From Sulfurimonadaceae bacterium (GTDB taxonomy: Bacteria > Campylobacterota > Campylobacteria > Campylobacterales > Sulfurimonadaceae), in the NCBI GenBank assembly GCA_028683835.1, contig JAQUHB010000011.1:1-64000 (forward strand): 64,000 nucleotides of DNA, read 5' to 3'. The notes under the pieces were generated by a model, which worked only from the letters and a program-made list of their open reading frames with translations, searched no databases and was not told where the DNA came from. Positions 42,891 through 47,350 of this stretch are shown here, piece by piece. Position 1 is the stretch's first letter, and each line of letters begins with the position of its first letter. A program made the position numbers and the translations under genes.

Positions 42891-42911
42891 AGAAAAAATT
42901 CTCTATCTGTT
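42882..42911. terminator. Bidirectional 13-bp hairpin
   Basis: AACAGATAGAGAA (42882-42894) and TTCTCTATCTGTT (42899-42911) form a perfect 13-bp stem around AAAA. The stop codons of both convergent genes (TAG at 42888-42890, and on the minus strand at 42903-42905) are inside the stem. It has no strong U-run. Confidence 0.7.
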
Positions 42912-44822
42912 TGGTCTTGAACTTTCGCGAAGCATATTATCCATCAGGTTAAACAACTCTTTACTCGCGTGTTCCATCTCTTGAAAATTATTGAATATCT
43001 CTGTTCTATGTGTTAAGATATTGGCCGTAGGGTCTACTGCATCTAAAAACTTCATATTTGTATTTGCATTTTTATGGACTATTGCATGAGGTGACGTGAA
43101 TTGTGAATATATAGAAGTATTCCCAAACCTCTCTTTACCCTCACCATCATACCATTTACCTAAGCGACATCCATGATGATCGACCACTGAAAGTACCTGT
43201 TTTGCAGTAACAATACTGTTATATGCTCGTGCTTTATATAAAATATGATCCATTTTAGCTAGTACTACAAAGATACTATTTTCCATTCCGTAGGAAGAAT
43301 GGACAATACCAGAAGAATTTTTACTAAGCTGTGTCAATATCTCTTCAAACTTATAAATTCTTTCCGTAGACTCCTCTACAACACTATTCATAGCTTCACT
43401 GCTCATCTGAATGTCACTCATTCCTTGCTGTAAAGTTTTAATCGAAATAGATATCTCACCGGTTGCTTTATGTGTACGTTCTGCGAGTTTTCTGACTTCA
43501 TCAGCAACGACTGCGAAACCTCTTCCATGTTCTCCTGCACGAGCTGCTTCTATGGCAGCATTCAGTGCAAGAAGATTTGTCTGATCTGCGATATCAGTAA
43601 TGAGCTCTATAACTGATGTGATATTTTCTGCCTGTGTTGCAAGTTCATCTATGGCTTGAGTATTCATACCTACTTGATTTTTGAGAGATTCGAGTTCTCC
43701 AACAATAACATCAATACTTTTTTTAGAATCGCTAGCATGAGATTCAGCAGATCTCGTTGCATTTGTAACACCTTTTAAAGCTTCTATATTTTTTGCCAGC
43801 TCTTCTTGAATCAAAGTCATACTTTCTGTAACACCCATACTTAATTGACTTATCTCTGCATTGAAACTGTCTTGTTGTTTTTTACTTTCTTGTGCTTGCA
43901 TAGAGTCGATGCTCCCTTTGACAAGAGTGATTGCTGTAACAAACTCACCTTTCATAGCATTAGAATGGATCTCAACGTTAAAATCTCCTTTAGATGCTTT
44001 AGAGATAGAGTGATTGATCTGATTTACAAAATCTTCAATCTGATCAAGTAATGACGATAAAGCAATTCCCATAACACCAAATTCTGTGTGCTCGTTCTTC
44101 TCAATTCCATGATGCTGAAGGTTCCCCTCTGCTGCGTGCTTCATCATATCTGTAAAGTTTTTGATAACTTTTACTATAGAACGCACAAGCACTTGAGACA
44201 AGATTAATACCATAATGCCAATAAAAAATCCAAGGATTAATGCAGCATATTTGTAGATTGAAGTACGTTGGGACATATCATTGACTGCACTTTCAAGAGC
44301 GTTATGTTTAAGCTCGATCACTTTTTCAAATTTTGCTCTTGATGCTTCAGCAGGAGGAGTCAGAGTAGCTTTATAGTTTTTATACAGTCCATCTTTATCT
44401 TCACTAATCTGTTTTGGTGTTAATGATTTCATAAGTGTAAATGCATTATTTAAAAAGAACATAGCTGAGTTTTGTGAATCTTCTATGAGTTTACGCTCAT
44501 TATCATCCACCGCTGTTTCTTTTAACTTTTGAAAACTTTCAGAAACTTTTGCAACTTTTTGAGATATCTTTTCTATATCTTTATCATAGTCACCACCAAG
44601 CATAATATCTCTGTCCAGTCTACTGACATAGTTCATATCTGCTTCGATAGAGAGGGTGTACATCTCACCTGCAACATATTTAGCTTTTAGATCACTAAAC
44701 TGAGAATCCAGTTTACTTAATACTAAATAGACGAAAAGCGACCCCGCAAATATCGATACAGTCACAAACATAAGAAGATAGTTCATCTTTTTATGAATAC
44801 TAGTATTTTTCATAAATTCCAT
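42903..44822 (-). CDS. Methyl-accepting chemotaxis protein with C-terminal CZB domain
   Basis: The 639-residue receptor has membrane helices at about 12-37 and 191-213. They flank a four-helix periplasmic sensor rich in Asp, Lys and Ser. A HAMP region follows, then the signalling hairpin tip [26 protein letters not shown] (about 425-450, written here with its key residues E, R, G, F and the DEVRKLAE core). Residues about 520-600 form a CZB zinc-binding domain with [14 protein letters not shown] (549-562) and later His residues. CZB receptors sense zinc or zinc-liberating oxidants such as HOCl in other bacteria. The ligand here is unknown. Confidence 0.92.
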
Positions 44823-44894: not shown

Positions 44895-45254
44895 TTACCA
44901 CTCATTAAATTTTTCTGCTTTATGCTTATCTTTTTTGTATTTTCTATTATTTTTAGTTTTTTCAAGTTTATTTGATTTATAAAGGATCTCATTTTTTAAC
45001 TCTTCAATAGCTTGATCACTATCAACTTTTGAAATGATCTCTTTAACTAAAGATTCCAAATCACTAAACTCTCCCTTATACAAAACAGCGCTTTGAGTTT
45101 TTTGAAAGTATTTGAGATTGTTTTCTATCTTTTTGTTATATCCTTCTTTAGTTGTCCCTTCAGGAATGGAAAGATAAGCAACAACACTTTTTAAAAATCT
45201 CTCAAGAACACGAATATATTTTAACCTTATTGAGGAGTCTATTTTATTTGACAT
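44895..45254 (-). CDS. Small Lys-rich protein of unknown function (119 aa)
   Basis: The 119-residue protein is highly charged (Lys, Glu, Asp), predicted mainly helical, with a strongly basic end (NNRKYKKDKHKAEKFNEW). It has no signal peptide, membrane helix or known domain. It lies alone between the chemoreceptor and the divergent rhodanese gene. Codon use resembles its neighbours and the frame is long enough to be real, but no homology can be claimed. Confidence 0.65.
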   Translation of the reverse strand: MSNKIDSSIRLKYIRVLERFLKSVVAYLSIPEGTTKEGYNKKIENNLKYFQKTQSAVLYKGEFSDLESLVKEIISKVDSDQAIEELKNEILYKSNKLEKTKNNRKYKKDKHKAEKFNEW

Positions 45255-45318
45255 TGTTTACCTGATTGTTAGTTTATGGAAGTATAATTATATACTAAAT
45301 ACTCATAGGACACATTAT

Positions 45319-45714
45319 ATGAAAAAACTTTTCCTACTACTCGTTTTTCTTGTCGCTTCATTGTTTGCAGAGGTAACAAACATCTATCCAGATAGCGCTT
45401 TTTTAAGTAAAAAAATTCCGATCGTGGATATACGTACAGAGGGAGAATGGAAGGAAACAGGAATTCTTAAAGGTGCCATTCCTATCACTTTTTTTGATGA
45501 AAAAGGAGGCTACAATATCCCTCTTTTTCTCAAAGAACTCTCAGCGAAAGTGGATGTAAAAAAACCATTTGCTCTTGTCTGCCATACCGGAAGTAGAACA
45601 AAGATGGTATCAGCATTTTTATCACAAAAGTTAGGTTACAATGTTTATAATCTTAACGGTGGTATGTTATACGTTATGGGTAAAAAACTTCCGATTATTT
45701 CATACAAAAAATAG
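45319..45714 (+). CDS. Secreted rhodanese-like domain protein
   Basis: The 131-residue protein has a signal peptide (about 1-17, LFLLLVFLVASLFA) and a single rhodanese domain. Active-site loop CHTGSR (88-93) carries the sulfur-accepting Cys88 and closing Arg93, and DIRTEGEW (37-44) is the conserved opening. A periplasmic role in moving persulfide sulfur is likely, which would suit a sulfur-metabolising host, but the substrate is unknown. A TATAAT-like -10 lies about 30 nt before the ATG. Confidence 0.88.
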   Translation: MKKLFLLLVFLVASLFAEVTNIYPDSAFLSKKIPIVDIRTEGEWKETGILKGAIPITFFDEKGGYNIPLFLKELSAKVDVKKPFALVCHTGSRTKMVSAFLSQKLGYNVYNLNGGMLYVMGKKLPIISYKK

Positions 45715-45728
45715 TTATTACAGCTCTG

Positions 45729-45745
45729 TTGGCATAGAACTTGCT
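45729..45745 (+). promoter_or_regulatory. Sigma-54 (RpoN) promoter
   Basis: TTGGCAT-N5-TTGCT matches the -24/-12 consensus TTGGCAC-N5-TTGCW at all but one position. GG (45731-45732) and GC (45743-45744) have the required 10-bp gap. The predicted start near 45756 precedes the diguanylate cyclase start at 45788. In Campylobacterota RpoN mainly serves flagellar genes. Confidence 0.75.
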
Positions 45746-45787
45746 ATTTTCTCCTATAACTGCAGAAGATAGCAACAAGGGAAATAT

Positions 45788-47011
45788 TTGAAATTTATAG
45801 ATGCTCTACGCCTTAAAAGTAAGCTCTTTTTCCTCTTCATCCTCATCTCGCTTGGTCTTTTCATCATAGGTGTGCTAGGAACACTCAATCTCATCTCTAT
45901 GAAGAAAAAAATCGATGCTCTTTATTTTGGTTCTTTTATCACAGTCGTTAATCTTGATGAGATCTTAAATGCTTATGATGTAGATATCCAGAGAAATCTT
46001 ACTCTTGCGAAAGAAAATTTATTAAGCACACAAGAAGCGATAGACGCGGTCAATAATGCTCTTATAGACATAGACAAACATTGGGATGATTATCACAACC
46101 ACTATAAAACTCCAAAAGAGCGTCCATTTGTCACTTATGCAGCAAAAGAGATCACTAATACTAAACTCTTTTTAAGCCAACTCTATCAGATCTGTCAAAA
46201 TGGATGTACTATGGGTGATCTTTCTATCGAGACTCTGAATTCTCACATCGATCATATCCACACGATAATAGCCCAACTGAGATCATATGAGATTCAGCGT
46301 GCACAGTACCAAAGACAAGAACTTATAGATTCCTATCATGAGACTCAGATCAAACTTGGAATTATCCTCATTTTAGTCAGCGGTGGTGTTCTGCTCATTT
46401 TGTATATAGTTTTTAAGAGTATTCAAAAAGATCAATCAGATATTGAGAGTGTTTCAAAAAAACTCCAAATAGCAAATAAAAAACTTGAAAATGCTTCATA
46501 TACAGACTCACTTACAAATCTTTACAACAGACGCTATTTCAATATTGTTCTCGATAGAGAGATAAAACGAGCTAAACGAGCCAAAAGCGAGATAACGTTT
46601 ATGATGCTCGATGTGGATTTTTTCAAGCAATATAACGATACTTACGGACATATTGAAGGAGATAAAGCGCTTATACATGTAGCCAAAAGTTTACGCTCTG
46701 TACTTCAACGTCCAGGTGACTTTGTCTTTAGACTCGGAGGTGAAGAATTTGGTGTATTCCTAACTGATACCGATGCGCAAGATGCTCAAACACTCGCAAG
46801 TAAGATCTGTCATTCTCTCGAAGAACAAAAGATTCCACATGCGGGCAACAAAGCCAACAAATACCTTACTATCTCTATAGGAGTCGTCTCATGTGTAGGC
46901 GATGAAACTTTAAATGAAGAAGAGATCATAAAACAAGCAGATAAGAAACTTTATGAAGCAAAAGAAAATGGAAGAAATAGATATGAATTTAGCTTTGGGG
47001 TTTTGGGTTAG
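45788..47011 (+). CDS. Membrane-bound diguanylate cyclase (GGDEF)
   Basis: The 407-residue protein has membrane helices at about 13-35 and 189-210 with a helical periplasmic sensor between them containing two Cys (136, 140). A coiled coil leads to a GGDEF domain (about 235-400). The active motif GGEEF (317-321) and the inhibitory site RPGD (308-311), five residues earlier, are both intact, so c-di-GMP synthesis with product inhibition is expected. The start is TTG at 45788 after AAGGGAAATAT. It is preceded by a sigma-54 promoter. A TACATGTA element lies at 46674. Confidence 0.93.
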   Translation: MKFIDALRLKSKLFFLFILISLGLFIIGVLGTLNLISMKKKIDALYFGSFITVVNLDEILNAYDVDIQRNLTLAKENLLSTQEAIDAVNNALIDIDKHWDDYHNHYKTPKERPFVTYAAKEITNTKLFLSQLYQICQNGCTMGDLSIETLNSHIDHIHTIIAQLRSYEIQRAQYQRQELIDSYHETQIKLGIILILVSGGVLLILYIVFKSIQKDQSDIESVSKKLQIANKKLENASYTDSLTNLYNRRYFNIVLDREIKRAKRAKSEITFMMLDVDFFKQYNDTYGHIEGDKALIHVAKSLRSVLQRPGDFVFRLGGEEFGVFLTDTDAQDAQTLASKICHSLEEQKIPHAGNKANKYLTISIGVVSCVGDETLNEEEIIKQADKKLYEAKENGRNRYEFSFGVLG

Positions 47012-47350
47012 TAATCCAATTATCTATTTTCAACCCTTCTACTCTTTTACATTATTTGTTACCAACTCTACGTTAAAAGAAGAAGCATGAGCAGCAATCT
47101 CTCACTCCCAAGCTCTTTTGCTTGGGAGCGTGTATTTGTGTTTGTATCCATTCCAAAACTGGAGTTTAGGAACGAGAGAAAACCTAAATAAGTTTTAATT
47201 GCATCTATTTCTTCTTTGATTTCATCTATTTTTTACCATGGTTTTTCATAAAAAAAAGAGTGGATTTTTGATGTTTGTTTGGATTGATTAAGAAAATGTC
47301 TTGAAGGGTTTCGCCCGTGAGGACGAAAGGGGTTTAACTAAAAGCCCGAA
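47012..47350. other. 339-bp intergenic region with several hairpins
   Basis: No protein-coding frame is convincing. It contains a 9-bp hairpin CTCCCAAGC/GCTTGGGAG (47105-47128), likely terminating the diguanylate cyclase transcript. A 22-bp near-palindrome (47151-47172) and a hairpin TTTCGCCC-GTGA-GGACGAAA (47309-47328, GNRA-type tetraloop, one C/A mismatch) follow. The last is close to the 3' end of the porin gene, which ends at 47351. The rest is AT-rich. Confidence 0.6.

Follow-up and report, generated by a model that had tools for sequence, protein, structure and literature searches.

A conserved, probable sigma-54 promoter element upstream of a predicted diguanylate cyclase gene in Sulfurimonadaceae and its probable link to the flagellar FlgR regulon

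The window, i.e. the whole stretch of 64,000 nucleotides analysed here, comes from a genome of the Sulfurimonadaceae, which oxidise sulfur (assembly GCA_028683835.1, contig JAQUHB010000011.1, positions 1 to 64,000; the source genome, G000, is called the own genome below). It carries a gene for a predicted diguanylate cyclase, the enzyme type that makes c-di-GMP, which starts with a TTG codon and follows a rhodanese-domain gene on the same strand. The features of this locus are:

45319..45714, forward strand, rhodanese-domain gene directly upstream of the cyclase gene (PF00581, E = 4.4e-12)
45729..45745, forward strand, sigma-54 -24/-12 promoter element TTGGCATAGAACTTGCT, assigned from sequence and ortholog conservation
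45756, forward strand, predicted transcription start, ~12 bases after the GC (promoter geometry, general knowledge)
45777..45782, forward strand, ribosome-binding site AAGGGA, 5 bases before the TTG codon (from the sequence)
45788..47011, forward strand, diguanylate cyclase gene, 407 aa, TTG start, with a 4HB_MCP_1 sensor (residues 8-139) and a GGDEF domain (residues 238-398)
47105..47128, forward strand, terminator-like hairpin after the cyclase gene, with a poor T tract (pattern scan only)

The sensor of the encoded protein is a chemoreceptor-type four-helix bundle (PF12729, residues 8-139), and its GGDEF domain is complete (PF00990, E = 8.4e-52, 175.6 bits). The GGEEF signature is invariant in 17 aligned orthologs, as are R308 and D311 of the RxxD inhibitory site. 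The product is a four-helix-sensor GGDEF protein with intact motifs and, by its predicted topology, membrane-bound; judged from these motifs it should make c-di-GMP and be held back by the inhibitory site. Terminator-like hairpins of the kind seen after the gene occur three times in the stretch, compared with 1.0 expected. Transcription of the rhodanese gene may continue into the cyclase gene by read-through. The genes upstream of the cyclase differ among ten named loci, and the neighbours in the loci read are non-flagellar; a rhodanese-like ORF, recognized by manual reading, lies near the cyclase in two of the ten, both from Sulfuricurvum. A 119-aa unannotated ORF stands together with the rhodanese gene (window 44895-45714) beside the cyclase, and the same pair occurs in the Sulfuricurvum locus L199 at -975 to -152 from the cyclase, a conserved neighbourhood as judged by eye. 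Adjoining the locus on the reverse strand (window 42903-44822) is the gene of a chemoreceptor that ends in a CZB (zinc-binding) domain.

The element TTGGCATAGAACTTGCT begins 15 bases past the stop of the rhodanese-domain gene. Its GG (45731-45732) and GC (45743-45744) are separated by a spacer of ten bases, which is the geometry of a sigma-54 promoter, and it matches the TGGCAY-N5-TTGCW consensus with GG-N10-GC spacing. The first-pass annotation had described TTGGCAT-N5-TTGCT with exact GG-N10-GC spacing, and this motif is indeed found at 45729-45745 on the forward strand. That it stands directly before the TTG start was also correct, but not the distance of 43 nt: 42 bases lie between the end of the site and the TTG codon at 45788. 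The site had further been taken for the single strong sigma-54 site of the window. This agrees with our counts, as the 45729-45745 site is the only place in the window that matches TTGGCAYNNNNNTTGCW exactly; at up to two mismatches there are 28 window matches vs 23.9 expected, so that the weaker ones, being close to chance, carry no meaning. Window-level counts of degenerate sigma-54 patterns were not significant and were dropped. A string similar to TTTTAGCATAA/TTTTATCATAA that several loci carry upstream was likewise set aside as an enhancer, since it resembles the -10 element of a divergent gene.

It is mainly the conservation of the site before orthologous genes that rules out a chance match at 45729-45745. 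Among 121 Sulfurimonadaceae genomes, the own genome included, 115 contained matches to the cyclase at E ≤ 1e-30, and 82 (two of them as partial genes) passed the ortholog cut-off of a best E ≤ 1e-60. Upstream DNA was obtained from 79 of these 82 genomes, the gene starting at a contig edge in G021, G032 and G113. A strict site, defined as NTGGNAYNNNNNWTGCN within 250 bases upstream, was present in 71 of the 79 regions, or in 70 without the doubtful L144 (at -189); the opposite strand gave 1/79, and mononucleotide shuffles a mean of 0.15/79. The strict pattern was chosen after the first 30 regions had been seen (28/30), and was found in 43 of the 49 later regions (42/49 without L144). Six of the eight misses carry one-letter variants (L046, L068, L148, L160, L162 and L164), while nothing similar to the site lies upstream of L163 and of the partial gene of L166. 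The final T, which the pattern does not force, is present in 69/69 cases (of the 70 sequences, one ended too early to be scored). In the window's genus, six genomes share the TGGCAT...TTGCT block, whereas the rest of their intergenic DNA varies.

Outside this ortholog group the picture differed. None of 28 more distant GGDEF genes (L218, L220-L246) is preceded by the strict site, L221 being uninformative at a locus edge. In a class-wide search, 61 of 347 genomes gave a hit at E ≤ 1e-55, and the strict site was absent from all six relatives outside Sulfurimonadaceae whose upstream DNA was read. Five of these six (family f7, 31-34% identity) probably belong to the Arcobacter group; RpoN and FlgRS are described as lost in Arcobacter (PMC9321776), and A. 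butzleri is likewise reported to lack both (PMC2147049). On this sample of six outside relatives, the promoter link appears to be particular to Sulfurimonadaceae.

A scan of the whole own genome, named in the first-pass annotation as a check, likewise favoured a sigma-54 reading. Pattern TTGGMAYNNNNNTTGCT had eight exact matches (reversed control, 0), and TGGNAYNNNNNWTGCT had 43 (reversed pattern, 8). By the rule of our script, 22 of the 43 TGGNAYNNNNNWTGCT matches fall outside long ORFs and about half inside genes; L114, classed as outside, abuts an opposite-strand ORF, and L098, classed as coding, stands ~35 bases before fliW. The genes downstream of TGGNAYNNNNNWTGCT sites that Pfam or NCBIfam models identify encode FlgI, FlgB, FlgH, FliD, FliW and PseB. 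Sites also precede two Flagellin_N proteins, which manual reading assigns as one flagellin and one FlgL-like protein, and two hook/rod proteins, one of them closest to FlgF, just under the model cut-off, and the other FlgE-like by manual reading. Sites of this type are therefore found in this genome ahead of genes for the flagellar rod, ring, hook, cap and filament. Further sites stand before DnaJ-domain, uracil-DNA-glycosylase-like, TPR, EF-hand and methyltransferase-like genes, and the remaining ones lie inside genes, before unannotated ORFs or without an assignable ORF. With one mismatch allowed, TGGCAYNNNNNTTGCW matched the whole genome 203 times (control, 60); eight of its 13 exact matches lie inside genes, which is why the other patterns were used.

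The own genome encodes two sigma-54 activators, FlgR and a NifA-like protein, and two RpoN proteins. FlgR (384 aa) consists of a receiver and an AAA+ domain, and no helix-turn-helix was found in it; the NifA-like activator has GAF, AAA+ and HTH_8 domains. Both fell short of their NCBIfam cut-offs (624.5 of 750 for FlgR, 517.8 of 528.85 for NifA). The flgR gene lies (in L079 1934-3983, G000 C4) downstream of an LPP20-family gene with a sigma-54 site of its own (C4:5501), which suggests that FlgR may itself be under sigma-54. Of the two rpoN genes (G000 C66:45298-45759 and C5:25673-26125; L080 1611-3263), one shares contig C5 with the NifA-like gene, so that here flagella and nitrogen fixation may each rely on a sigma-54 of their own. 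Two RpoN also occur in several of the relatives that have the larger activator. For Campylobacter and other Epsilonproteobacteria, FlgR has been described as the sole sigma-54 activator (PMC3162934), a statement that the NifA-like gene qualifies. The same holds for the first-pass view that sigma-54 in Campylobacterota is largely reserved for flagellar genes: besides the flagellar sites, this genome has the NifA-like activator and two RpoN rather than one.

We counted activators (E ≤ 1e-15) in the first 30 cyclase-bearing genomes for which loci were retrieved. Eighteen had one activator and ten had two; G096 had one together with two fragments, and in the cyclase-bearing G040 (85% complete) neither FlgR nor any other activator was detected. 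The sole activator matched the own FlgR over at least residues 2-381 in 18/18 cases, at 73-96% identity, and five of these 18 genomes (G053, G088, G098, G102 and G116) are single-contig. FlgR was present in 21 of 22 cyclase-bearing Sulfurimonadaceae genomes tested, G040 being the exception. Thirty cyclase-lacking genomes, chosen mostly for lacking the cyclase, were tested as well: 12 were without FlgR (G007, G010, G025, G027, G035, G036, G044, G045, G049, G050, G056 and G072) and 18 had FlgR or a fragment. This comparison of FlgR absence covers genomes picked for the purpose, and one case, G040, runs counter to it.

The cyclase also co-occurs with the MS-ring protein FliF. In the 121 genomes, it was found in 81/102 with FliF vs 1/19 without (Fisher's p = 7.5e-10, kinship ignored), and in the 95 genomes of at least 90% completeness in 70/86 vs 0/9 (p = 1.7e-6, likewise ignoring kinship); most FliF-lacking genomes fall into two genera, and the association is not kinship-corrected. 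The one FliF-lacking genome with the cyclase is G026 (83% complete), in which FlgR is present. RpoN followed the same trend more weakly, with the cyclase in 79/105 genomes with RpoN vs 3/16 without. Because 21 FliF-bearing genomes are without the cyclase, and because 18 of the 30 cyclase-lacking genomes keep FlgR, which is not what a core regulon member would show, the cyclase is on these genomes an accessory of the FlgR regulon at most. As a separate observation, G072 (L253 9340-11733) has no RpoN, no sigma-54 activator and no cyclase, and keeps, by manual reading, a shortened FliF-like ORF (454 aa) and a FliG-like ORF. The idea that its divergent FliF belongs to a swapped-in foreign flagellar set was rejected, as the neighbours resemble those of L254.

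Collectively, we regard it as very probable that 45729-45745 is a real sigma-54 promoter, that the gene behind it is under FlgR/RpoN control and that its product is a cyclase. Control by FlgR is inferred from the conservation of the site and from the many relatives in which no activator other than FlgR was detected. The proposal of the first-pass annotation that c-di-GMP production is linked to flagellar assembly is thus well supported by comparison, namely by conservation, by the flagellar sites of the own genome and by co-occurrence with FlgR and FliF.

How such a link might operate is suggested by C. jejuni, in which FlgS/FlgR react to the export apparatus together with its MS ring and rotor by activating the genes under sigma-54 control (PMC9449129, PMC13432727). 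By extension from C. jejuni, FlgS/FlgR would become active once the export gate and the MS ring/rotor are in place. FlgR, devoid of a DNA-binding domain, would then activate sigma-54 polymerase at the flagellar promoters and at the cyclase promoter, and a cell that has passed this checkpoint would, on the same analogy, produce the cyclase together with its hook and rod. The cyclase, with its presumably periplasmic four-helix sensor and restrained by the inhibitory site, would make c-di-GMP, which in other bacteria usually signals cells to stop swimming and settle. A rise of c-di-GMP in flagellum-building cells could slow or cap flagellation, or could prepare attachment, via a non-PilZ effector. 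No PilZ domain was found in the own genome at E ≤ 0.001, so that the effector would be of another kind or too divergent. A brake, a flagellation cap and attachment preparation are each compatible with the data; this physiological outcome is the weakest step, and we consider it doubtful. The scheme as a whole, a flagellar cascade of opposite sign running from the basal body through FlgR/sigma-54 to c-di-GMP synthesis, with its own brake, cap or attachment programme and a non-PilZ effector, is offered as a tentative model only.

The arrangement resembles the FlgSR/RpoN regulon of C. jejuni and H. pylori in its FlgR-type activator and in the sigma-54 sites that precede its hook, rod and ring genes. 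In lacking a DNA-binding domain, the FlgR found here resembles that of H. pylori, in which this domain is absent and which is reportedly an enhancer-independent activator. Unlike in the C. jejuni and H. pylori regulon, a diguanylate cyclase would be a member here; none is named in the accessible text of PMC9449129 and PMC13432727. The flagellar cascades described elsewhere mostly drive c-di-GMP phosphodiesterases, i.e. PdeH in E. coli and BifA in Pseudomonas (P. putida, P. aeruginosa) (PMC8669469, PMC5026340, PMC4866697). Common to these systems and ours is a c-di-GMP enzyme under the flagellar gene cascade, but in those systems the enzyme under FliA lowers c-di-GMP, whereas the one that sigma-54/FlgR would control here is predicted to make it. 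This contrast in sign is not absolute, because in E. coli the flagella-coregulated RdcA/RdcB are described to activate the cyclase DgcE, a precedent for an indirect feed to synthesis. Nor is the bare pairing new, given that sigma-54 promoters were predicted upstream of E. coli yeaJ and yhjK (PMC3162934). As in our case, the sigma-54 site precedes a gene for a (putative) diguanylate cyclase; the E. coli sites differ in being a prediction in another organism, for which the accessible text of that study draws no FlgR-type regulon link. The P. putida protein FlgZ/PP4397, reported as a sigma-54- and FliA-dependent c-di-GMP effector (PMC6093933), is similarly a component of c-di-GMP signalling whose gene is expressed together with flagellar genes via sigma-54, but is a YcgR-like effector, not a cyclase. 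We found no literature on a cyclase in an FlgR regulon by title or abstract, most subscription papers lying outside the scope of this search.

If the model is true, a flagellar cascade would be able to raise c-di-GMP directly, besides lowering it. Sulfurimonas has cultured members. c-di-GMP signalling in Campylobacterota is poorly understood, and in C. jejuni it is in doubt whether CbrR, the one predicted cyclase, makes c-di-GMP (PMC10790790). A cyclase promoter of the FlgR/sigma-54 type that is conserved throughout the family would provide an entry point that comprises a gene, a promoter and a regulator.

Four other explanations were weighed. FlgR and sigma-54 might drive the gene while c-di-GMP acts on a target unrelated to flagella or attachment, the promoter serving as a growth-state signal. 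The non-flagellar neighbours of the cyclase in the loci read would fit this, as would the lack of a PilZ protein in the own genome and the retention of FlgR in 18/30 cyclase-lacking genomes; it is set against the association of the cyclase with FliF and FlgR and against the general connection between c-di-GMP and motility known from other bacteria, and we judge it rather unlikely. Alternatively, the protein might be regulated as proposed and yet be a c-di-GMP-binding or dead GGDEF protein, as C. jejuni CbrR, another GGDEF protein, is reported to be without cyclase activity in vitro (PMC10790790). The complete GGDEF domain and the invariant GGEEF, R308 and D311 make this improbable. That the promoter is real but read by NifA with the second RpoN, which would tie the cyclase to nitrogen fixation, is suggested by the NifA-like activator and the two RpoN of the own genome, one on the contig of the NifA-like gene (C5). 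In contrast, the 18 of 30 cyclase-bearing genomes with FlgR alone keep both gene and site (at -90 in G018, nearer in the remaining ones), and eight of the 12 FlgR-less genomes have a NifA-size activator without the cyclase, in a set mostly chosen that way, so that we give this reading very little credit. Finally, a chance match with transcription by rhodanese read-through or from a sigma-70 promoter, for which the nearby same-strand rhodanese gene and the frequent matches of broad patterns inside genes could be cited, is hardly credible in view of the 70/79 orthologs with the site, the 8/10 named loci in which manual reading found no rhodanese-like ORF upstream, and the scan of the DNA between the two genes, in which no sigma-70-like site reached the threshold.

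Beyond the flagellar genes, some proteins encoded behind intergenic sites of the own genome are possible members of the regulon: the DnaJ-domain protein behind L094 (C47:13362), a candidate for the flagellar regulon, the uracil-DNA-glycosylase-like protein behind L025 (C9:37955), the EF-hand protein behind L011 (C80:19869), the TPR protein behind L008 (C60:81541) and an unannotated 314-aa protein behind L107 (C58:83322).
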